This document shows, piece after piece, positions 22,200 through 60,979 of a DNA stretch of 64,000 nt. Position 1 is the stretch's first letter. Every line of letters starts with the position of its first letter. A model generated the notes under the pieces. That model was not told where the DNA came from. It saw nothing but the letters and a program-made list of their open reading frames with translations, and searched no databases. The stretch is from Pusillimonas sp. TS35 (GTDB taxonomy: Bacteria > Pseudomonadota > Gammaproteobacteria > Burkholderiales > Burkholderiaceae_B): assembly GCF_009857885.1 (NCBI RefSeq), contig NZ_WWER01000005.1, forward strand, positions 248,001 through 312,000. Reading direction: 5' to 3'. The position numbers and the translations under genes are program-made.

Positions 22200-22698
22200 A
22201 TGGGAAAACTCCTCGAGTTGCTAAATGAATGAATATAGTGCTGTTCGGTATTTATTCTGCACCCAAAAATGCAGAAACATAAATATGCATCGAATATGCC
22301 GCATTGCTGCATAAAAAATCGCGGATTCGTGCGCGTATTTTGAGCCGGGAGAGATACTATACAGAAGGAGGCGGCAAGGAAAGCAATAGAAATAGTAATA
22401 CGGCACATGGCGTATGAGCACATGATGCATAATGCATAAAGCCACGCCATGCTCGAGAAAACCGCGCTGTGTTTGATATAGCCAACACACAGTCGGCGCT
22501 TTACCAGAATAATCCTGGATTTCGAACCGCAGGCTTATCCCTTCACCGCTTCAAGGGTATACTAGCCGCACTACGGCTATTCAAGGCGTCGTACACGTTG
22601 CCTTCTGCCCCGCTATCCGCTATCCGGTCTGGCCGTGTCGCGGAAGGTTGTCCTGCATCGTAACGAGCGAGACGCTCGGTTAGGTGAAGCGTATATCT
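22200..22698. promoter_or_regulatory. Divergent maeB/odhA regulatory gap
   Basis: This is 499 bp without a convincing gene. On the maeB side are the inverted repeat TTCTGCA-N8-TGCAGAA (22255-22276) and several TGCATA-type words, including two abutting ATGCAT palindromes (22425-22430 and 22432-22437). On the odhA side TATACT at 22558-22563, with a weak -35 (TTATCC at 22535-22540, 17-bp spacer), is the best promoter candidate. A 6-bp hairpin (22664-22678) sits just before the odhA ribosome site. Confidence 0.4.
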
Positions 22699-26988: not shown

Positions 26989-28416
26989 ATGGCAAAACAA
27001 TTTGACGTAGTCGTTATCGGTGCCGGCCCCGGCGGTTATATTGCGGCTATCCGTGCCGCCCAGCTTGGCCAGAGCGTGGCATGCATCGATGCCTGGAGCA
27101 CCAGCGACGGCAAGCCAGCCCCCGGCGGCACCTGCACCAATGTGGGATGCATCCCCTCCAAGGCGCTGCTGCAGTCGTCCGAGCATTTCGAGCAGGCCAA
27201 TCACCATTTCGCCGAGCACGGCATCGAGATGAAAGGCGTGAGCCTCAAGCTGGACACGCTGATTGGCCGCAAGGATACCGTCGTCAAGCAGAACAACGAC
27301 GGTATTCTGTACCTGTTCAAGAAGAACAAGGTCACCTTTTTCCACGGCACGGGTTCGTTCGCGGCACAGGTCGACGGCGGCTGGAGCATCAAGGTGTCGG
27401 GCAAGGCCGAAGAAGAACTGGTCGCCAAACATGTTGTCATCGCTACGGGCTCGTCGCCGCGTGCGCTGCCTGGACTGCCGTTCGATGAAAAGCAGATTCT
27501 GTCCAACGATGGCGCGCTGCGCATTCCCGCTGTCCCCAAGAAACTGGGCGTGATCGGGGCGGGTGTGATCGGCCTCGAGCTGGGCAGCGTCTGGCGCCGC
27601 CTGGGTGCCGAAGTCACCGTGCTCGAAGCGATGCCTGAGTTCCTGGCCGTGGTCGATCAGCAGGTTGCCAAGGAAGCCCTCAAGGCATTCACCAAGCAGG
27701 GCTTGAATATCCAGACCGGCGTGAAGATCGGTGAGGTCAAACAGACCGCCAAGACCGTTACCGTCAACTATACCGACGCTGCTGGCGCCGAGCAGAAGCT
27801 GGCCGTGGACAACCTGATCGTTTCGATCGGCCGAGTGCCCAATGTCGAGGGCCTGGGTGTCGATGCCGTAAGCCTGAAGCGCGATGAGCGCGGCTTTATC
27901 GTGGTTGACGACGAGTGCAGGACCAACCTGCCCAACGTCTGGGCGGTGGGTGACGTCGTGCGCGGCCCCATGCTGGCTCACAAGGCTGAAGAAGAAGGCG
28001 TTGCGGTGGCTGAGCGTATTGCGGGGCAACATGGCCACGTCAATTTCGGCACTATCCCTTCCGTGATCTATACCTCCCCCGAGATCGCCTGGGTAGGCAA
28101 GAACGAGCAGCAGCTCAAGAGCGAAGGCCGTGAGTATAAGGCCGGCAACTTCCCCTTCATGGCCAATGGCCGTGCTCGCGCGCTGGGTGACACCACCGGT
28201 TTCGTCAAGGTGATTGCCGATGCCAAGACGGATGAAGTACTGGGCGTGCACGTCATCGGGCCCATGGCTTCCGAATTGATCGCCGAAGCGGTTACCATTA
28301 TGGAATTCCGCGGCGCGGCCGAAGACATCGCGCGCATTTGCCATGCGCACCCCACGCTGTCCGAAGCCATGAAAGAAGCGGCGCTGGCCGTCGACAAGCG
28401 CACGCTCAACTTCTGA
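26989..28416 (+). CDS. lpdA: Dihydrolipoamide dehydrogenase (E3)
   Basis: A 475-residue flavoprotein disulfide reductase. It shows the FAD fold [20 protein letters not shown], redox disulfide [16 protein letters not shown] fold [20 protein letters not shown] and the C-terminal His-Pro pair in [10 protein letters not shown]. It reoxidises the lipoyl groups of OdhB and probably of pyruvate dehydrogenase. The ATG at 26989 is used because conserved sequence begins there; a longer open frame upstream covers the terminator. No LipA-type domain is fused at the N-terminus. Confidence 0.95.
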
Positions 28417-42613: not shown

Positions 42614-43150
42614 ATGTACAAAAAGCTGACGATCGCGATAGCCGCGATGGGTTTCGCACTGTCCGCCGCGGCGGCTGAATATCCGATCGGCAAGCCCAGC
42701 GAGCACGCCGGGCTCGAAATCGCGGCAGTCTATCTGCAACCGGTCGAAATGGCGCCAGAGGGCATGATGCGGCCCGCGCGCGAATCCGATATCCACCTCG
42801 AAGCCGATATCCACGCCACGGCCGGCAATATCAACGGCCTACCCGAAGGCGCCTGGGCGCCGTATCTCAACATCCGTTATACGTTGCAAAAAAAAGGCAG
42901 CGACAAAGTCATTTCAGGCGACCTCATGCCCATGGTTGCCAACGACGGCCCGCATTACGGCGACAACGTCAAGTTGGATGGCCCGGGTAAATACACGCTT
43001 ACCTTCACGGTGGCCTCGCCCGAGGCGGCCAAGATGAACCACTTCGGGCGTCACATCGACAAAGAAACCGGGGTTGCGCCGTGGTTCAAGCCGTTTGATG
43101 TCTCGTACGAGTTCGTATTCGCCGGCACAGGCAAGAAAGGGGGGTATTGA
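42614..43150 (+). CDS. ftrA: Periplasmic iron-binding protein FtrA (P19/Tp34 family)
   Basis: A 178-residue secreted protein: signal peptide MYKKLTIAIAAMGFALSAAAA, then EYPIGKPSEHAGLEIAAVYLQPVEM and ESDIHLEADIHA, whose Met, Glu and His residues resemble the copper/iron site of the P19 family. It is thought to deliver Fe(II) to the downstream oxidase and permease parts. The ATG at 42614 is chosen because it gives a proper signal peptide. It is the first gene of ftrABCD, behind a Fur-like site. The stop overlaps the ftrB start. Confidence 0.92.
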   Translation: MYKKLTIAIAAMGFALSAAAAEYPIGKPSEHAGLEIAAVYLQPVEMAPEGMMRPARESDIHLEADIHATAGNINGLPEGAWAPYLNIRYTLQKKGSDKVISGDLMPMVANDGPHYGDNVKLDGPGKYTLTFTVASPEAAKMNHFGRHIDKETGVAPWFKPFDVSYEFVFAGTGKKGGY

Positions 43151-49257: not shown

Positions 49258-49334
49258 TGGTTGCGGGGACAGGATTCGAACCTGTGACCTTCGGGTTATG
49301 AGCCCGACGAGCTGCCAGACTGCTCCACCCCGCG
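49258..49334 (-). tRNA. Initiator tRNA-fMet (CAT anticodon)
   Basis: A complete 77-nt cloverleaf on the minus strand. It starts CGCGGGGTGGAGCAG and ends CCCCGCAACCA with CCA encoded. The first base C opposes A at the end of the acceptor stem, the C1-A72 mismatch typical of bacterial initiators. The anticodon stem GTCGGGCTCATAACCCGAAG has the three G-C pairs typical of initiator tRNA. The T-arm GGTTCGAATCC is intact. It is a single gene, divergent from scpB. Confidence 0.97.
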
Positions 49335-49419: not shown

Positions 49420-50286
49420 ATGACGGAAACAGAGATCATCCGAGTGCTGGAAACCGCGCTGTTGTGCGCCGACCAGCCTATGGCGCCAGGCGAGCTGAGT
49501 AAGCTGTTTGCGCTTGAAGACCTTACACACGACGAGCTGCGCGGGCACCTGGAAACGCTGCGGCAACAATGGGATGGCCGGGGGCTTGAGCTTGTCGCCC
49601 TGGCAGGCGGCTGGCGGTTTCAGAGCAGGCCCGAGATGCAACGCTATCTCGGGCGCCTCAGCCCGGAGAAGCCACCCAAGTATTCGCGTGCGGTGCTTGA
49701 AACGCTGGCAATTATCGCCTGGCGCCAGCCTGTCACGCGTGGTGACATCGAAGACATACGCGGCGTGACTGTATCGTCCCAGATCGTGCGTACGCTGGAA
49801 GATCGGGGCTGGATCGAGGTGTTGGGTCACCGAGATGCGCCTGGCCGGCCAGCATTGCTTGGCACGACGCGTCAGTTTCTCGATGATCTTGGCCTTAAGG
49901 CGCTCGACGATCTGCCGGAACTCGCCACGCATGATGCCGTCGAAGCGCTGGCAGGCCTCGCGCTCGAGGAAGTGCCTGAAGACGAGACAGTGCTTCTGGA
50001 GAGCGATGGCGATGGCGGGCCGGGCGAGGGCAATGGTGCCATGCGTGCGGATGCATCGTGCGACGATACCGGCAAGCCGGCTGCACTGGACGCCGGCACA
50101 CTGAACACGGATACGGAAGATTCGGCCGCGCTGGACGCGGGCTCACTGAACACGGATATGGGCGGGGAAAGCTCGTCTGATGCCGGTACGCCACGCGTAT
50201 CAACTGACACAATCAATGATGATACGGGCGCGCTGGCCATGCCCCAAGAAGATATAAATACGGAGTACCTAAAACAAAATGACTGA
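49420..50286 (+). CDS. scpB: Segregation and condensation protein B
   Basis: A 288-residue protein. Residues ~1-180 are two winged-helix domains typical of ScpB ([73 protein letters not shown]). It forms the condensin-like complex with SMC and ScpA. The remaining ~90 residues are an acidic tail with degenerate 15-residue repeats ([30 protein letters not shown]), encoded by a 45-bp DNA repeat near 50086 and 50131. It overlaps rluB by 8 bp. Confidence 0.92.
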
Positions 50287-52810
50287 ATCCAACGAGCAAT
50301 ACGACCTGCCTCTGATTGACCGACCCGCTGAGAGCGGAGTCGATGCGGCCACTGGGTCCCGGCCTGCCGCACGTGGCAGGCGCAAGAAGACGGATGATGT
50401 CGTGACGGCCGCTGCTGTCGCGGAATCGGCGCCTGAGGCCGCAGCACCGCGTCGGCGCGTGAAAAAAGCTGCCGACGCAGATGCGCCGGCGCCGACATCC
50501 CGTGCGCGTCGCGGTGCTGCGACAACGGCCAATGCAAGTCAGGATGGTGTGGCGCTGAAACGCCCGCGCCGTACGGCGGGTGCCTCTGCTGCCGCCGCTG
50601 GCGTAGCAGCCGCAGAAGCTGACGCGTTCACGCCAACCGGTGCTGTCGCGGAAGTTGCGGCTGCGGCAGGCGGGGCTGGCGATGTGGCCCTGGCTGCTGA
50701 CACAGCGGCACCAGCGCGTCGCACCCGGGCCAAAGCTGCCTCTGCGCAGATAGCTGGCGAAGCGCCTGCCGCCGCCAAGCCGCGCGCGCGGCGCAAGACG
50801 GCTGTGGCTGACGCGGTGGCGGAAGCGGCGGTTGTTGGCGATGATGCCGGCCGCGCTACCCCTGTGGTTCCCGCTGCGTCCGTGGCAACCAAGCCTGAGC
50901 GCAAACGCGCGGTGCGTCGCACCGGCAAGGCATCGGCCGAGACACGATCCGAAGATATGGCCGCAGGCGGCGCATCGGTGGCAGCCGAGGCGCTGACGCC
51001 GGCTGCTATGCCAGCCGAGGCCTCATTCTCTTTCGCGGCCGCGGCTGCAAGGCCGGTATCGGAGGTGTCCGCAGTTGTTTCGGATCGAGTATCGGATGCC
51101 GCGCGGGAATCCGGCGCGGCATACGTTGATAGCCGCGTGTCGCGGGGCGCGCCTGAAGACGCCGCGTCGGCTGATGCTGGCGTGGGTGCTTTGGGTGCGG
51201 AGGGCCGCAATGTTGGCGGCGAGCGCCCCGGTGGCCAGCAGGGCCGTACGCGTAAGCTGCGCACGCCGTTCCGCCGCCGTCGCGGCGACGCCGCCGAGGC
51301 GCGCGGCGCCGAGGCGGGTGATGCGGCCAATGCCGCCCAGACGCAAGAAGGCACGCCCAAGCCTAGCCCGCAAGGCCGCGCGGATGCCGCTGCGCGTAGT
51401 GACGCCGGCCCGGCCAAGAACGGCCGTGGGCGCAACCGCAACGGGCGCCGCGGGGAGAGCGCCGAAAATGAAAAAGACGCCGATATGGCATTGTCTTACC
51501 TGGAGCGCACAGCCCGCATGACACAACGACTCGACAAATACCTGCATAGCGACGTGCTGCAGCCCAAACTGCACAAGGTGCTCGCAGAAGCTGGCATTGG
51601 CTCGCGCCGCGAGATGGAAGAGCTCATTATTGCTGGTCGCGTTTCGGTCAATGGCGAGCCGGCGCACATCGGCCAGCGGGTCGGGCCCAATGATCAAGTG
51701 CGCGTCAATGGCCGCCTGATCGTGCGCGCCTCTGGCAAAAAGCCGCCGCGTGTCATTCTGTACCATAAGCCCGCGGGCGAAATCGTCAGCCATGATGATC
51801 CTGAGGGCCGCGCCAATGTGTTTGCACGACTGCCCAAAATGAAGTCGGGCAAGTGGCTGTCGGTGGGGCGGCTTGACCTCAATACCGAGGGGCTGCTTAT
51901 TCTCACGACATCAGGTGATCTGGCCAACCGGCTCATGCATCCGCGGTACGGCGCCGAGCGCGAGTATGCCGTGCGTGTGCTGGGCGAATTGGGCGACGAG
52001 CAGAAAGCCAGTCTTCTCAAAGGGGTACAGCTCGACGATGGTCTGGCCAGTTTCGGTGTGCTGGAGTACATCGGTGGCGAGGGTAGCAACCGCTGGTATC
52101 GCGTCACCCTGAAAGAAGGCCGCAACCGCGAGGTGCGCCGTATGTTCGAGGCGGCGGGTGTCACGGTAAGCCGATTGATCCGAACACGGTTCGGCGATGT
52201 GGTGCTGCCGCGCAATCTCCGACGTGGCCGCTGGGAAGAATTGGACGGCAATCTGGTGAGCGCATTGATGGTGCAACTGGGCCTGATCCGCGACGAGGAC
52301 ACTGAAGGGGTGCGTGGCCAGCGCGAGCGCCAGCCGCTGTCGCATGACAGCGCCTTGCCACCCGGCTTCGGCACGCTCGAGCGCAATGGCATGAATGGTG
52401 CCAAGATCAGTCGGCGGGGCAAGCTTTCCGGCGGCCGCAAGGTTGCGGGCGCGGCCCGTGAGGCTTATCCCTCCGATCCCTACGGTACCGGGCTGATGTT
52501 CAGTGGCGGGCTGCCGAATGGCCACCCCCTGGAAGGTGGGCGTGGCAAAGGCGGGCATAAGGGGCAGGGCGGTCAGGGGGCGGCAGGGGGCGAGCAGCGT
52601 CGTCGCGGCCCGAGCCAGCGCCCGACCGCGGGCAAAGGCCCCAAGAACGAAGGCAAAGGTTACGGCGCCAAGGGCGGCCAGAAGGGCAAAAGCAAAGACG
52701 GCGGCAACAAGGGCGGCCAGCGGAGCCGTACGCAGCGTGGGGACGATTGGCAGCCGCGCAGTGCCTCAGCCCACGAATCCCATCTAGGCAAGCTGGGTCG
52801 CGGACGCTGA
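50279..52810 (+). CDS. rluB: 23S rRNA pseudouridine synthase RluB with very long disordered flanks
   Basis: An 843-residue protein, about three times a minimal RluB. Residues ~1-420 are Ala/Arg/Lys/Pro-rich low complexity. The S4 domain begins near residue 424 ([29 protein letters not shown]), followed by the RsuA/RluB catalytic motif [14 protein letters not shown] and [15 protein letters not shown]. The last ~130 residues are Gly/Lys/Arg-rich. It modifies 23S rRNA, probably near U2605. The frame is continuous with no stop or shift. Pairing with scpB is conserved widely. Confidence 0.92.
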
Positions 52811-53065: not shown

Positions 53066-54247
53066 ATGATTCTCAAGGATGAAACATTCTCTATGTATTG
53101 CGACAAGCCCCAGGCAGACTGGGATCCCCGCTCCCCCGATGTGCTCGACGACCAGATTGCGGCCTATGACGACATGCGGCGGCGCTGCCCGATTGCGCAC
53201 AGTGATTACCTGGGCTGGTCGCTGTTCCGGCACGCCGATGTCGTGCGCGTGCTCAACGACCACGATACCTTCAGTAACCAGGTTTCGCGCCACGTGTCAG
53301 TGCCAAACGGCATGGACCCGCCCCTGCATACGGCTTTTCGGGCGCTGATCGAACCCTACCTGAGCGCGGCGCACGTCCAGGCGTTCGAGCCGGCATGCCG
53401 CGCAATTGCCGGCCAGTTGGTTGGCGCTTTGCCGCGCAACGGCGAGGCAGACATCATGGAGGCTCTGGCGCGCCCCTACGCGGTGATTACGCAGGGTACT
53501 TATATGGGGTGGCCCGAAAGCGTGCATCAGCCATTGCTCGATTGGGTGCACCGCCAGCAGGCGGCAACACTGGCGGGTGATCGCGCGGCGCTGGCGGCCT
53601 GTGCTTATGCCTTCGACGACGGTATACGTGCGCTGCTCGAAGCGCGCCGATCTTCTGGCGACGCTGTGCCGGACGATCTCACGACGCAGCTGATGAATGA
53701 AACGGTGGACGGCCGTCCCATCACAGACGAAGAGGTGATCAGCATATTGCGCAATTGGACGGTCGGCGAATTGGGCACGATGGCTGCGTCCGTGGGTATC
53801 GTGGTGCAGTTCCTGGCCGAGCGCCAGGATGTGCAGGACATGCTGCGTGCCGATCCCTCCAGGTTGGTGGCGGCCATCGACGAGATCCTGCGCATTCATG
53901 CGCCGTTGATCGCAAACCGCCGTACGGTTACCCAGCCTGTCGATATCGGCGGCCAGGCCCTGCGGCAGGGCGATCGGCTAACCATTCTATGGGCTTCCGC
54001 CAATCGCGACGAAGCAGTGTTCGGCGATCCGGACGAATTCAGGCTCGATCGCGACCCGGCGCTCAACCTGCTCTACGGCGCCGGCATTCATGTATGCCCA
54101 GGTGCGGCACTGGCCCGCCTCGAGCTGCGTGTGCTCATTGAGGTACTGCTGGCGCGCGAAGCGCGGATTTACCCAGTTGAGGAGGGCGCCCGGCAAGCTT
54201 GTTATCCCGCCAGCGGGTATACGATGCTGCCGGTACGCTTCGGATAG
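53066..54247 (+). CDS. Cytochrome P450, orphan
   Basis: A 393-residue soluble bacterial P450. The ExxR motif is at Glu273-Arg276 (EILR). The haem loop YGAGIHVCPG has ligand Cys344, and residues DPPLHTAFRALI match the C-helix HxxxR region. The I-helix reads NWTVGELGTMAASVG, so the acidic residue usually before the catalytic Thr is Gly. No ferredoxin or ferredoxin reductase gene is adjacent. The substrate is unknown. The start is uncertain: ATG 53066 or ATG 53093, the latter with AAGGA about 13 nt upstream. Confidence 0.9.
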   Translation: MILKDETFSMYCDKPQADWDPRSPDVLDDQIAAYDDMRRRCPIAHSDYLGWSLFRHADVVRVLNDHDTFSNQVSRHVSVPNGMDPPLHTAFRALIEPYLSAAHVQAFEPACRAIAGQLVGALPRNGEADIMEALARPYAVITQGTYMGWPESVHQPLLDWVHRQQAATLAGDRAALAACAYAFDDGIRALLEARRSSGDAVPDDLTTQLMNETVDGRPITDEEVISILRNWTVGELGTMAASVGIVVQFLAERQDVQDMLRADPSRLVAAIDEILRIHAPLIANRRTVTQPVDIGGQALRQGDRLTILWASANRDEAVFGDPDEFRLDRDPALNLLYGAGIHVCPGAALARLELRVLIEVLLAREARIYPVEEGARQACYPASGYTMLPVRFG

Positions 54248-54682
54248 CGTCAGTCAGGCGTATTTCGCCTGGGATGGGGTGGCTTGGTGTTGCGTCAATG
54301 CTGTTGGGTGCGGAGGCACCACGCCGCGCCTGCGCATCGCATTGCGCAGGGCACCGTCCTGCTTCACCTGGCAAGGTGTGGCGCGCCACCGGCGGCCTGC
54401 GGGCCGCCATGCGCATGGCGATTGTTGCTTTTCTCGTGTAAGGCCCGGACTCTACAGGAAAATTTTAATTTTTCTGTTAGAATGTAGGGCTTTACAGCTA
54501 TATTGTTTTCGTCATGCGGTAACCTTGACTTGGCAATACTAGCGGCACATTTTCGAATGCGTCTTTGTGGCGACGGTAAGTCGAGGCTCCGTGCATGGCA
54601 GCATGCGGGGCACGAACGAGCCGTATGCGGCAAAGAGCGACAACAGTGGGCTGGGGCGTACAGCCCATTTTTTTTGGATTTT
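54248..54682 (+). promoter_or_regulatory. Promoter and structured leader of the rimP-nusA-infB operon
   Basis: This 435-bp gap holds no gene. A small hairpin (54255-54271) lies after the P450 stop. The promoter candidate is an extended -10 TGTTAGAAT at 54475-54483 preceded by an A/T-rich spacer. A leader of about 190 nt follows, with a stem around 54585-54622 (GGCTC with GAGCC enclosing CGTGC/GCACG and a GCATG/CATGC tip). It ends in the U-rich hairpin listed separately. Confidence 0.55.
54647..54675 (+). terminator. Attenuator-like intrinsic terminator just before rimP
   Basis: TGGGCTG (54647-54653) pairs with CAGCCCA (54661-54667) around a 7-nt loop, followed by eight T residues (54668-54675). 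The rimP ATG starts only 7 nt later. The short stem with a long U-tract resembles NusA-stimulated terminators, and NusA is encoded in this operon. Confidence 0.75.
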
Positions 54683-55165
54683 ATGGCGGATATCTTTGCT
54701 TTGACACAAGAAGCGCTGGCTGGCACAGACATCGAGCTGGTCGACGTCGAGCGCGCGCCGCTGGGGCTGTTGCGTGTCACCATCGACCGGCCCGACGGCG
54801 TGCGCATTGAAGACTGTGAGTACGTCTCGCGGCAGCTTTCGCGCGTCTTCGAGGTCGAGAACATCGATTACAAGCGACTGGAGGTTGGCTCGCCCGGTAC
54901 CGATCGGCCGCTCAAGCGGCTTGCCGACTTCATCCGGTTCTCCGGTGAGCGCGTCGAGGTGCGGCTGCGCAATCCGATCGATAATCGCAAGGTGTTCGTC
55001 GGCGTTCTGCGCGCGCCCGAAGGCGCGGACGCGGCGGCATCGCCTACGTTCAGCCTCGAGCTCGAAGAGGCCAAGGGCGCACCCGCGTCAATTGCGTTCA
55101 CCTTTGAAGAGGTCGATCGCGCCAAACTGGATCCCATTCTCGATTTCAAGGGTAGAAAGCGATGA
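54683..55165 (+). CDS. rimP: Ribosome maturation factor RimP
   Basis: A 160-residue protein with the RimP N-terminal domain ([46 protein letters not shown]) and the conserved [23 protein letters not shown]. It assists 30S subunit maturation. The ATG at 54683 is used because conserved sequence starts here; the open frame to 54503 runs through the leader. The ribosome site is weak (GGA in a T-rich context). The stop overlaps the nusA start (ATGA). Confidence 0.94.
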
Positions 55166-56646
55166 GTCGCGAAATTCTTTTGCTGGTTGACGCCCTGGCG
55201 CGTGAAAAAAACGTCGAGCGCGAAGTCGTGTTCGGCGCGCTGGAAAGCGCCTTGGCATCCGCCATGAAAAAGCGCTTCAAAGAAGACGCTGACATCCGAG
55301 TCACCATCGATCGCAACACTGGCGAACATGAAGGTTATCGCCGCTGGCTGGTGGTGCCCGACGATGCGGGCCTGCAGGAACCCGACCAGCAGGAGCTGTA
55401 TTCCGAGGCCCAGGAAATCATTCCCGGCATAGAGGTGGGCGAATACATCGAAGAGCCGCTCGAGCCGGAAGAATTCGGCCGCATCGGCGCGCAGGCGGCC
55501 AAGCAGGCCATTCTGCAGAAAATCCGCGATGCTGAGCGCGAACAAGTGCTCAACGACTTCCTCGAGCGTGGCGAAAACATCGTGTCCGGTTCCGTCAAGC
55601 GCATGGATAAAGGCGATGCCATCATCGAAACCGGGAAGATCGAGGCCCGGCTGCCGCGCAGCGAGATGATCCCCAAAGAAAACATCCGGGTGGGTGATCG
55701 CGTGCGCGCCTGGGTGCTCAAGGTGGATCGCGCCGCGCGTGGTCAGCAGGTGATCCTGTCGCGCACCGCGCCCGATTTCATCCGCCAATTGTTCGAGAAC
55801 GAGGTTCCCGAGATCGAGCAAGGCCTGCTCGAGATCAAGGCAGCCGCCCGTGATCCCGGCGTGCGCGCCAAGATCGCCGTGGTGGCCTACGACAAGCGCA
55901 TCGACCCTATCGGCACGTGCGTTGGCATGCGCGGTTCACGCGTCACCGCTGTGCGCAATGAGTTGGGTGGCGAGCAGGTCGATATCGTACTGTGGGCAGA
56001 AGACCCGGCCGAATTCGTCATCGGCGCGCTGGCGCCGGCCAACGTTGAGTCCATCGTGGTTGACGAAGACAGGCACGCCATGGATGTCGTCGTCGATGCC
56101 GAGAACCTGCCCAAGGCCATCGGTGCGCGCGGGCAGAACGTGCGCCTGGCATCCGAACTCACCGGCTGGCAGATCAATATCATGACGCCGGAAGAGAACC
56201 AGAACCGCCAGGAAGAAGAGCGCGCCGAACTGCGCCAGACCTTCATCACGCGGCTGGATGTCGACGAGGAAGTGGCCGATATTCTCATCGATGAGGGCTT
56301 TACCGGCATTGAGGAAATCGCCTACGTGCCGATGCAGGAATTGCTCGAGATCGAGGCCTTCGATGAAGACACGATCAACGAGTTGCGCACCCGCGCCCGC
56401 AACGCGCTGCTCACCGAAGCCATTGCCCAGGAAGAGCGCGCTCAGTCCGTCGCCAAAGACCTGCTCGAGATTGAAGGCATGACGCCCGAGCTGGTATCCA
56501 AGTTGGCCGAAAATGAAGTGCTCACGCTGGATGATCTGGCCGAGCTGGCAACCGATGAACTGGCCGAGATCAGCGGCCTGTCGGAAGAAGAGGCCAGCCA
56601 GATGATCATGCGCGCGCGTGCCCACTGGTTTGACGACGAGGCCTGA
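55162..56646 (+). CDS. nusA: Transcription termination/antitermination factor NusA
   Basis: A 494-residue protein: RNA-polymerase-binding N-terminal domain, S1 domain ([27 protein letters not shown]), two KH domains ([17 protein letters not shown] and [20 protein letters not shown]) and two C-terminal acidic helix-hairpin-helix repeats ([38 protein letters not shown]). It modulates pausing and termination. Translationally coupled to rimP. Confidence 0.97.
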
Positions 56647-56712: not shown

Positions 56713-59700
56713 ATGTCAAGTAACACCGTCGCCCAGTTCGCCGTTGAACTGAAAATGCCTGCGGACGCGCTGCTGGAGCAGCTGCGTGGCGCTGGCGTTG
56801 AACTCAGGTCGGTCGACGACGTCGTCACCGATGCGGACAAGGCGAAACTACTTGATTCGTTGCGCCGCGCGCATGGTGGGAACGAGGGCAAGAAGATCAC
56901 CCTGACCCGCAAACAGACCTCCGAGATCCGGCAGGCCGATGGGTCGGGCCGTTCCCGCACGATCCAGGTCGAGGTGCGCAAGAAGCGTGTGTTCGTGAAG
57001 CGCGATCCGGTCGAACTGGCTGCCGAAGCCAGGGCTCAGGCCGAAGCCCGCGCACAGGCCGAGGCGCCGGCGGCTGCCAGCATGCCTGAGCCTATGCCCG
57101 CATCGCAGGCTGAAGCGCCGGAAACGGTTGCGCCCGAGGCGCCTGTCAAGGCGGCGGAGGCTGCACCCGTGCAAGAGATCCAGGCAGCGGCCGAACCCGC
57201 AGTGACGCAGCCCGAACCCGAGCCTGCCGCGCCTGCACATGCCGAGCCAGCGCCTGTTGCATCCGAGCCGGCTCAGACGCCTCTGGCCGAGACGCTAGCG
57301 CCGTCGGCCAGCGAGGTCGCACAGTCGGCGCAGGCCGCTGAAGCGGCGCCCGCAGCGCCCGAAGCACCGCCGTCTCAAGCTGAAACGACAGCACCTGCCA
57401 TCGGGGCTGAAGCGCCCGCGCAAGCTGCGCCCGCCAAGGCTGAGCCTGAGGTTCCCGTGTCCGCTCAATCTGCTGCCGCACAGCCCGAAGCCGCGTCCGA
57501 AGCCGCTGAACGTCCTGCACCGGGTCGCACAGAAAATCGTGCCGTCAAGGCGCCTGTGCGCAGTGCAACCGCACCGCGCCGCGCGGCGCCCGCAGAAGCG
57601 CCCAAGGCCGCCGACGGTGATCGCGAGCGCGCTCGCCGCGCCGCCGAGGCCGAAGCGGCTGCGCTGCGCGAAATGCTGCAGCGTCCGCGCAAGGTGCTGA
57701 AGGCGCCCGAGCCCGAACAGCAAGGTATTTCGGGCACGCTGCACAAGCCAGCCGGCGCCAAGGGCAAGAAAGAAACCAAGGCCGGCGGTGAGGTCAAGAA
57801 AACCATCAAGGTCGCCGAGGTTTCCTCGTCCTGGTCCGATGACGCTGGCCGCAAGAAGCCGGCGGCGCGTCCCGACGCCGCACCCGCGGCGCCCAGCCGT
57901 GACGGCTGGCGTGCCGGCGGCAAAGCAGGCAAGGGCGCCAAGGGCGCCAAGGGCGGCCGTGGTCGCAATGCCCAGCCCGAGCGCAAAGAGCCGCAACAGG
58001 CCGAGTTCATCTCGCGCGAGGTACACGTGCCCGAAACGATTTCCGTGGCTGATCTGGCTCACAAGATGTCCATCAAGGCATCCGAGGTCATCAAGCATCT
58101 GATGAAGCTCGGCCAGATGGTCACCATCAACCAGGTGCTGGACCAGGAAACCGCCATGATCGTGGTCGAAGAACTGGGTCACGCTGCCATTGCGGCCAAG
58201 CTGGACGATCCCGAAGCGTTCCTCGATACGGTTGAAGGTTCCGAGGCCGAATCCTTGCCGCGCGCGCCGGTCGTCACGGTCATGGGCCACGTCGATCACG
58301 GCAAGACTTCGCTGCTCGACTATATCCGCCGCACCAAGGTTGCCTCCGGCGAAGCAGGCGGCATCACGCAGCATATCGGCGCCTATAACGTCAAGACCGA
58401 CCGCGGCATGGTCACCTTCCTGGATACCCCGGGCCACGAGGCGTTTACCGCTATGCGTGCGCGTGGTACCAAGGCGACCGATATTGTCATTCTCGTGGTG
58501 GCCTCCGATGACGGCGTTATGCCGCAAACCAAGGAAGCCATCCACCACGCCAAGGCAGCCAATGTGCCCCTGGTGGTGGCGATCACCAAGATCGACAAGC
58601 CCGATGGCAACCCCGAACGCGTCAAGCAAGAGTTGGTCGCCGAACAGGTAGTGCCGGAAGAATACGGTGGCGATGTGCCGTTCATTGGTGTGTCTGCCAA
58701 GACCGGCCAGGGTATTGATGATCTGCTCGAGAACGTGCTGCTGCAGGCCGAAATCCTCGAACTGAAGGCGCCTGTCGACGCGCCAGCCAAGGGTATCGTG
58801 ATCGAAGCGCGTCTGGACAAGGGCCGTGGCCCGGTGGCCACCGTGCTGGTGCAAAGCGGTACGCTCAATCGCGGCGATGCGCTGCTCGCAGGCGCCAGCT
58901 ACGGCCGCGTGCGCGCCATGTTGAATGAAAACGGCAAGCCGCTTGCCTCTGCAGGCCCATCGATACCTGTCGAGATCCAAGGCCTTACAGAGGTGCCGGC
59001 GGCGGGCGACGAGGTCATTGCCATGGTCGACGAACGGAAGGCGCGCGAAATCGCCTTGTTCCGCCAAGGCAAGTTCCGCGACGTCAAGCTCGCCAAGCAG
59101 CAGGCCGCCAAGCTTGAGTCCATGTTCGAGAACATCGGCGAAGGCACGCAGACGCTGGCACTTATCATCAAGACTGACGTGCAGGGCTCGCAGGAAGCGC
59201 TGGTGTCTTCGCTGGTCAAGCTGTCCACCGACGAGGTGCGTGTGCAAGTGGTCCACGCCGCCGTAGGTGGCATCTCCGAGAGCGACGTCAACCTGGCGAT
59301 TGCCTCGCATGCGGTGGTGATTGGTTTTAATGTTCGCGCCGAGCAAAGCGCCAAGAAGCTGGCCGAGCACAACGGCATCGACCTGCGGTACTACAATATC
59401 ATTTACGACGCTGTGGATGATGTACGCAATGCCCTGTCCGGCATGCTCGCGCCCGAGAAGCGCGAAGAGGTCATCGGCATGGCCGAGATCCGCGAGGTGT
59501 TCCATGTGTCGCGCATCGGCAATATCGCTGGCTGCATGGTCACGGATGGTTTCGTGCGACGCGATGCCCAGGTTCGCCTGCTGCGCAATCATGTGGTGCA
59601 ATGGACGGGCTCGCTCGAATCCCTTCGCCGTTTCAAGGACGATGTCAAAGAAGTCAAGTCGGGCTTCGACTGCGGTATCACCCTCAAGGGTTATAACGAA

Positions 59701-59760
59701 ATCGAAATCGGCGATCAGCTCGAGTTCTTTGAAATCAAAGAGATTGCCCGCACTCTGTAA
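56713..59760 (+). CDS. infB: Translation initiation factor IF-2
   Basis: A 1015-residue IF-2. N-terminal IF2_N domain ([24 protein letters not shown]), a long Ala/Pro/Glu-rich linker to residue ~390, and a second IF2_N-like segment ([23 protein letters not shown]). The GTPase domain has G1 GHVDHGKT at residue 525, DTPGHEAF, and TKIDKPD. C-terminal domains bind initiator fMet-tRNA. The gene for that tRNA lies 7 kb upstream on the other strand. Gap to nusA is 66 bp. Confidence 0.97.
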
Positions 59761-59773
59761 GCGGTAAGCGATT

Positions 59774-60184
59774 ATGGGCCGACACAAATCCAAACCTAAT
59801 CCGGGGCGCAACACCAGGCTGGCCGACCAGATCCAGAAGGATCTGGCTGGGCTGATCCAGCGCGAGATCGACGTCTCGCGCGCCGGCCTGGTCACGCTCA
59901 CCAGCGTCGACCTGTCGGCGGACTACGCCCATGCCAAGGTGTACTTCACCGTCATCGGCGGTACCCCGGAGGCCGCCACAGCCGCGCTGAACGAAAAAGC
60001 CGGGTGGCTGCATTCGCTGTTGTTCAAGCTGCTTCACATCCACACCGTACCAACTCTGCGTTTCGTCCACGACGATGCTCTCGCACGCGGTATCGAGCTC
60101 TCGCAGCTCATCGACCGCGCCAATCGCCCGGATCCCGGCGTCTTCAAACCCTCGGAACCCGAGGACCCCGACGAACAGCCCTGA
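59774..60184 (+). CDS. rbfA: Ribosome-binding factor A
   Basis: A 136-residue KH-fold protein ([49 protein letters not shown], then [20 protein letters not shown]) typical of RbfA, which supports late 30S maturation and cold growth. It lies 13 bp after infB and 33 bp before truB in the conserved operon order. Confidence 0.94.
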
Positions 60185-60217: not shown

Positions 60218-60979
60218 ATGGCTTCCCGACGCGGGCAGATGCTCGACGGTGTCCTGTTGCTGGACAAACCCGAGGGCCTGTCCAGCAACCACGCCCTGCA
60301 GCGCGCCAAGCGCACCCTTGATGCCCGCAAGGCCGGGCACACGGGTACGCTCGACCCCTTCGCAACCGGCCTGCTTATCTGCTGCCTGGGCAAGGCCACC
60401 AAAATTTGCGGCCGCTTGCTCGATGCCGACAAGGGCTACGTGGCCACGCTGCGCTTTGGCGAAGAAACGGATTCTGGCGACTTGACAGGCAATATTGTGG
60501 CGCGCGCCGATGCAAGCTTCAGAGGGGTGGCGCGCGACGCACTCGAGCAGGCGCTGGAAGGCTTTCGCGGCGAGATTTCGCAGATCCCGCCCATGTACTC
60601 GGCGCTCAAGCGCGACGGCAAACCGCTGTATGAGTATGCGCGACAAGGCATCGAGCTCGAACGCCCGGCGCGCCAGATCACCATACACCACTTGGATTTG
60701 CTGAGCCTGAGCGACGACGGACTCGAAGCCGACATCGCCGTGCAATGCAGCAAAGGTACTTATATACGCACCCTGGCGCAGGACATCGGCCGGGCATTGG
60801 GCTGCATGGCGCATCTGCAGCGCCTGCGGCGCACACAGGCCGGCCCTTTCCGCATCGACGATGCGATCGGCCTGGAGGCATTGCAGGGGCTGCCCGATCC
60901 CAAAGTGGCGCTGATCCCACTGAATGCGTTGCCCGCCGGCCTGCTGCCGGAAACTGATCAACAAAAGGATGAACTATGA
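60218..60979 (+). CDS. truB: tRNA pseudouridine(55) synthase TruB
   Basis: A 253-residue enzyme with [24 protein letters not shown], the catalytic [14 protein letters not shown] (Asp46) and [37 protein letters not shown]. It makes pseudouridine 55 in the T-loop of elongator and initiator tRNAs. The stop overlaps the typA start (ATGA). Confidence 0.96.

Follow-up and report, generated by a model that had tools for sequence, protein, structure and literature searches.

Organization of the rimP locus

The window analyzed here, a stretch of 64,000 nucleotides from Pusillimonas sp. TS35, contains an operon of the rimP-nusA-infB type with rimP as its first gene, which is also the gene context of the published rimP-leader family; the features are listed in Table 1. 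The operon determines the supply of NusA and IF-2. Pfam assignments of RimP, NusA, IF-2, RbfA, and TruB agree with the operon context given in an earlier note on this DNA. A cytochrome P450 gene (Pfam p450; 53066-54247) lies between a rluB-like gene (50279-52810) and the rimP leader, and in several relatives the end of the rluB-like gene appears, as judged by eye, directly 5' of the leader. ARAGORN placed only two tRNAs in the window, at 27273-27350 and 49258-49334, both on the minus strand.

Table 1. Features of the rimP leader and operon, in window positions.
Feature	Position	Strand	Evidence or remark
Extended -10 promoter TG-T-TAGAAT	54475..54483	+	Sequence; common to closer relatives
P1 helix, 5' arm	54497..54505	+	Pairs with 54534-54543; covariation over 31 leaders
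P1 helix, 3' arm	54534..54543	+	As 5' arm; pair probability 0.93-0.97 in full leader
P2 hairpin (GGCACAUU-UUCG-AAUGCGUC), directly after P1	54544..54563	+	78.3% of cells paired
Variable upstream stem (named in the earlier note)	54585..54622	+	Stable in window; sequence not conserved, structure not clearly so
rimP-leader terminator hairpin (GGGCUG...CAGCCC)	54645..54669	+	-14.9 kcal/mol; in 95/96 leaders
U-tract (T8), in Shine-Dalgarno place	54668..54675	+	7-10 T in 93/95 leaders
rimP	54683..55165	+	Pfam RimP_N 9.4e-14; DUF150_C (RimP C-terminal domain) 1.2e-09
nusA (candidate effector)	55162..56646	+	Pfam NusA_N, KH_5, S1
infB (IF-2)	56713..59760	+	Pfam IF-2, IF2_N
rbfA	59774..60184	+	Pfam RBFA
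truB	60218..60979	+	Pfam TruB_N

The extended -10 promoter proposed earlier was read directly at its position, with the coordinates checked by script, and direct reading also bore out a leader of ~190 nt between this promoter and rimP. Spacing from the -10 element would place the transcription start at about 54487-54490. A sigma-70 scan did not include the rimP promoter in its list, because no good -35 element is present. A -10 element followed by GGCTT was found in 33 of 81 rimP upstream regions and the exact sequence CTGTTAGAAT in 21, in both cases mainly in closer relatives; the promoter, the first transcribed bases, and the P1 helix are common to the close relatives.

A conserved terminator precedes rimP

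The core stem of the hairpin next to rimP, UGGGCUG/CAGCCCA, forms seven pairs (54647-54653 with 54661-54667), and a G-U and an A-U pair extend it to nine (54645-54653 with 54661-54669) around a loop at 54654-54660. The T8 run begins at 54668, and 7 nt separate its end from the rimP ATG at 54683. Direct reading with script-checked coordinates thus reproduced the 7-bp stem and the eight T residues ending 7 nt before the start that had been described earlier. The same description called the stem weak, which holds only in relative terms; in a crude scan of the window for hairpin-plus-T candidates at or below -6 kcal/mol, the rimP hairpin (-13.7 kcal/mol in that scan) ranked 18th to 19th among 54, the best reaching -35.7 kcal/mol. 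In absolute terms the hairpin folds at -14.9 kcal/mol (z -3.41), a value equalled by none of 200 shuffles.

Runs of eight T occur twice in the window, in the rimP leader and at 42895 on the minus strand. A terminator scan found three terminators vs a shuffled mean of 1.9 (sd 1.3), which is by itself no proof, and it is conservation that establishes the rimP terminator. A bidirectional terminator was considered and dropped, as no T-run follows the stem on the minus strand.

To follow the hairpin among relatives, the best 80 of 128 loci from a RimP scan were kept, which together with the window gave 81 upstream regions. Hairpin and T-tract were present in 80 of them; the sole miss (L036) is cut by a contig end, with the 3' half of the hairpin still visible. 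Adding 20 further stretches from other genomes gave 101 rows, and removal of five duplicates left 96 leaders, 95 of which carry the hairpin and U-tract and retain the GGGC/GCCC arms. Relatives thus conserve both the stem and the U-tract, as the earlier proposal required. The T-run measures 7-10 in 93 of the 95 leaders, and the fifth stem pair is U-A in the same proportion (93/95). At the level of the order, RimP was present in 57 of 60 genomes drawn, and GGGC...GCCC with a T-run was found upstream of rimP in 28 of 30 loci fetched; the two loci without the motif, L082 and L103, have other hairpins with T-runs. Anatomy and conservation are what the data show; termination in the cell, at 54645-54675, is predicted.

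The motif GGGC...GCCC with a T-tract is present in 226 of 250 family genomes, frequently more than once per genome, and hence it is not a rimP-only signal. The genome set includes four genomes of the window's genus, which by coordinate matching are probably the records labelled Allopusillimonas and Alcaligenaceae CGII-56. The window's genome contains GGGCTG...CAGCCC 20 times vs 8 for a reversed control pattern. When a T-tract was included, this pattern gave two matches on one strand in genome G000, which we take to be two overlapping matches of the rimP site. T8 within 3-10 nt of ATGG occurs four times in the genome, rimP included, vs two for the control.

No competing antiterminator is visible in the leader

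The stem at 54585-54622 had been suggested earlier as part of a switch. We rejected it as a conserved switch element, since the spacer sequence is not conserved among relatives and spacer structure exceeds shuffles in stability only slightly (mean z -0.83 over 32 leaders, the window at -3.24 being the lowest); nor does any alternative pairing with a terminator arm stand out in the window. To examine this last point in 82 leaders, each terminator arm was scored for its most stable duplex elsewhere in the leader, with 60 shuffles as the reference. Alternative pairing showed no overall excess in the 82 (mean z +0.12, 5' arm; -0.13, 3' arm), and in the window leader no antiterminator is visible by this measure (z +0.51 and -0.37, respectively).

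In 12 of the 82 leaders the most stable alternative duplex equalled or surpassed the hairpin, and z reached -2 or lower on one arm in six only (L031, L057, L067, L069, L076, L077). Two of these, L076 and L077, do carry a perfect 10-pair complement to the terminator 5' arm (-20.9 kcal/mol), an observation that speaks against a model without a competing RNA structure; a true antiterminator may exist in this group. L076 and L077 are related rimP leaders whose records are labelled Achromobacter aestuarii and Schauerella fraxinea. Two further candidates were set aside. Pairing of the 5' GGGCU with the terminator 3' arm was dropped given that the 3'-arm test shows no excess; GGGCU coincides with the start site placed above, and part of it may not be transcribed. 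GGGCUUUACAGC was also considered as a boxA-like sequence and dropped after comparison by eye.

A stable hairpin, eight uninterrupted T residues, and no visible antiterminator are also what would be expected of a constitutive intrinsic terminator that cuts operon output by a fixed fraction, involves no effector, and keeps its GGGC arms for strength. Such a stable stem with a perfect U-tract could allow termination independent of NusA. However, the arms keep one sequence across many genera and in other families, where pairing would suffice, and control of the operon by NusA is described in the accounts of B. subtilis (PMC12288461) and E. coli (PMC6511841) cited here. We consider a constitutive terminator unlikely, although it is the most probable of the alternatives. 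Attenuation decided by a protein is preferred, as the GGGC/GCCC letters are kept even though a terminator requires pairing only.

The U-tract takes the place of a Shine-Dalgarno sequence in the window's family

The distance from the U-tract to the ATG is 5-7 nt in 90 of 95 family leaders (7 nt in L022, by reading). Four of the remaining five have 9, 10, 15, and 50 nt; the fifth, L025, has a script distance of 1 nt to a nearer ATG and of 10 nt to the rimP start. The overlap of the terminator with the ribosome-binding region, noted previously for the window, therefore holds family-wide. Other families of the order differ, with a median of 16 nt over 20 leaders. This set comprises 20 of the 28 order-level leaders with the motif, with starts chosen by hand, and omits eight whose start was unclear or unset (L093, L097, L098, L099, L100, L101, L104, L110).

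Anti-Shine-Dalgarno pairing at positions -20 to -4 of rimP averaged -1.96 kcal/mol over the 95 family leaders, and only one of them reached -3.4 kcal/mol, namely L025 when measured from its nearer ATG. The window value is -3.1 kcal/mol and the nusA starts of the same loci average -4.3 kcal/mol (78 of 80 located by motif), both figures coming from a comparison that still counts all 101 rows, duplicates included. In the other families, 13 of the 20 leaders reached -3.4 kcal/mol, and a Shine-Dalgarno sequence usually lies between the T-tract and the start. In the window's family, then, the terminator runs up to the start codon, lacking the spacer and the Shine-Dalgarno sequence found in other families, and rimP probably starts from a U-rich, S1-type site. 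Outside this family, as in L085, L088, and L090, a shared RTTTGTGG often stands between the U-tract and the start codon.

Such close spacing with almost no Shine-Dalgarno pairing could mean that hairpin and U-tract function chiefly in translation, the hairpin positioning ribosomes at a U-rich, S1-type loading site, and that termination is minor. We regard this as very unlikely, because the other families hold the same hairpin and T-tract at a distance from the start, so that the hairpin is independent of the start codon. A terminator that is conserved in its own right, and that in one family abuts the start codon, remains the preferred reading.

A clade-specific P1-P2 domain occupies the 5' end of the leader

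The 5' end of the leader carries a conserved domain in which the P1 helix encloses a loop of widely differing length among relatives and abuts the P2 hairpin. The alignment included 31 of 32 leaders, L010 being left out for its long loop. P1 is formable in all 31, and it shows the compensatory changes that an alignment of relatives' leaders, recommended in the earlier note, was meant to reveal; pairs 1-5 are formed in 94.2% of cells, and two-sided changes occur at three of these five pairs. The figure for P2, 78.3%, is lowered by one position of the eight, at which most sequences have an A-C mismatch, and by five leaders that lack the usual P2 (L022, L119, L127, L128, L129).

As a whole, the P1-P2 structure pairs in 84.5% of cells, and shifting it by 1-3 columns reduces this to 28-48%. 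None of 500 shuffles, in which relatedness is ignored, reached its covariation score (0.214), and 12 of 500 reached its number of further pair types. Cognate P1 arms summed to -290.4 kcal/mol vs a mean of -218.5 (sd 9.1) for species-swapped arms, and none of 20000 permutations, which likewise ignore relatedness, was as low. On a tree of 22 loci, the pairing changes counted for pairs 1-5 of P1 were two-sided in 2 cases and one-sided in 8, with 4 breaks; for pairs 6-7, read in fixed register, the counts were 1, 1, and 16, respectively, which we attribute to a shift in helix register. In the window, the pair probability of P1 is 0.0 in one 115-nt prefix (Table 1 gives the full-leader value), and that of P2 is 0.93-0.95 when just transcribed and at most 0.08 in the full-length fold, where a longer hairpin beats P2 by 1.9 kcal/mol.

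A covariance model built from the 31 aligned leaders was used in a filtered search of 151 family genomes. It matched 55 genomes at E up to 1 and 38 at E < 1e-3, the latter from 18 of 43 genera, and all 38 matches sit in a rimP leader as judged by coordinates or by reading. Ten of the 38 fall outside the alignment by coordinate matching (G002, G006, G019, G021, G069, G072, G093, G094, G105, G114), some of them being closely related to aligned members. By reading, L133 and L134 retain P1 although its letters differ. One aligned member, L125 (genome G016), was missed by the filtered search, and thus true P1-P2 cases can escape detection. In a sample of 120 genomes of the order, no genome but that of the window scored below 1e-3, with one other at 0.006. 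P1-P2 is clade-restricted and, where found, tied to rimP. No covariance model of Rfam (release 15 copy) matched the rimP leader at its gathering score; four matches at E up to 10 within 54400-54760 were all far below gathering. A literature search across titles and abstract openings, for a small part of the lists, returned no study of P1-P2 or of the rimP leader in Alcaligenaceae. Term searches within PMC8060035, PMC4603805, and PMC5719362 yielded no matching passage.

Most simply, P1-P2 would act as a message stabilizer or as a protein-binding (control) site. A bolder reading, to which we give rather little credence, is that it represents a new cis-acting RNA receptor of one Alcaligenaceae clade that senses NusA, RimP, IF-2, or RNA polymerase and tunes read-through of the rimP terminator, with the fused U-tract acting as both terminator and ribosome-loading site. 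If true, the same eight bases would set both polymerase release and rimP translation. In phages, put RNAs are 5' RNA structures that make RNA polymerase ignore downstream terminators. P1-P2 is reminiscent of this arrangement in being structured and covarying, in lying at the 5' end inferred for the RNA, and in preceding a terminator that has no antiterminator hairpin, but that it lets polymerase pass the rimP terminator in the same manner is the least probable of the readings considered, given that the terminator is far more widespread than this clade-restricted domain and that a plain 5' stabilizer accounts for P1 equally.

Comparison with known nusA operon leaders

The window feature fits the published rimP-leader terminator, and its core is already known. 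Naville and Gautheret (2010; PMC2965389) placed rimP at the top of their predicted attenuation-regulated genes, and their account of the rimP-leader describes a terminator stem with an unusually conserved GGGc...gCCC and a U-stretch located 4 to 130 nt before the gene start. The same account gives no larger conserved element and no visible antiterminator for the general form, and proposes NusA, on indirect grounds, as the best candidate effector. The window shares the GGGc...gCCC hairpin, the U-stretch (here 7 nt before the gene), the position 5' of rimP-nusA-infB, and the lack of a visible antiterminator, to which L076 and L077 are the exceptions among its relatives. Two clade-specific features go beyond the known rimP-leader. 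Spacing at the low end of the 4 to 130 nt described in PMC2965389 is here a family-wide rule, and the leader carries the conserved 5' P1-P2 domain, whereas the description in PMC2965389 has no larger conserved element. The earlier note had missed both the published family and this domain.

Likeness to two other known systems is partial. A review describes NusA-stimulated termination in the 5' leader as the means by which B. subtilis NusA regulates its own expression (PMC12288461); the window shares the nusA operon with an intrinsic terminator in the 5' leader, but the NusA stimulation reported there is only a candidate here. In E. coli, the metY-rimP-nusA-infB operon likewise has terminators 5' of rimP, described as t1 and t2, and transcript levels are higher when NusA termination is reduced (PMC6511841). 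In contrast to that arrangement, with metY upstream and two terminators, the window has one terminator seen next to rimP and no tRNA there. The idea of NusA feedback put forward in the earlier note is thus sound but not new, being present in the rimP-leader, B. subtilis, and E. coli literature as cited. A rimP leader is also named among ProQ-associated RNAs derived from attenuators in PMC5391140.

Proposed model of operon control

We propose that the hairpin and U-tract form the intrinsic terminator of a rimP-leader attenuator, with NusA as the likely effector giving negative feedback and P1-P2 as a second part, and we assign this reading a probability of about 0.6. The promoter at 54475-54483 would produce the leader RNA from a start near 54487-54490, and the polymerase would pause at the U-tract. 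At 54645-54675 the outcome would be either release of a ~187-nt RNA or read-through into rimP-nusA-infB-rbfA-truB. Because no antiterminator is seen to compete with the hairpin, the choice between the two most likely depends on a protein that acts on both the paused polymerase and the sequence-constrained GGGC stem. NusA, encoded by the operon itself, is the best candidate; more NusA would mean more termination and thus negative feedback on nusA and, with it, infB. Comparison with the known systems makes NusA feedback on the window operon likely.

Since the U-tract ends 5-7 nt short of the ATG and occupies the Shine-Dalgarno position, the terminated ~187-nt RNA would have no start codon, and the read-through mRNA would probably initiate rimP at the U-rich, S1-type site beside the hairpin. 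P1-P2 would be the second, clade-specific part of the leader, as a stabilizer or a protein-binding site, with a role in antitermination being possible. The window's family offers a compact natural test of such control, with one terminator on the start codon, no visible competitor, and a 5' helix that is separately removable.

Other RNA matches in the window

On the minus strand, 54632-54675 gave a sub-threshold match to Rfam RF02420 (15.6 bits, gathering 50, E 5.2). RF02420 is a Burkholderia sRNA candidate whose model opens with an A-run and a UGGGCG hairpin, resembling the reverse complement of the rimP-leader terminator, and its model may have been built from the opposite strand. Elsewhere in the window, the Rfam SucA RNA motif at 22610-22691 exceeds its gathering score with 54.4 bits.
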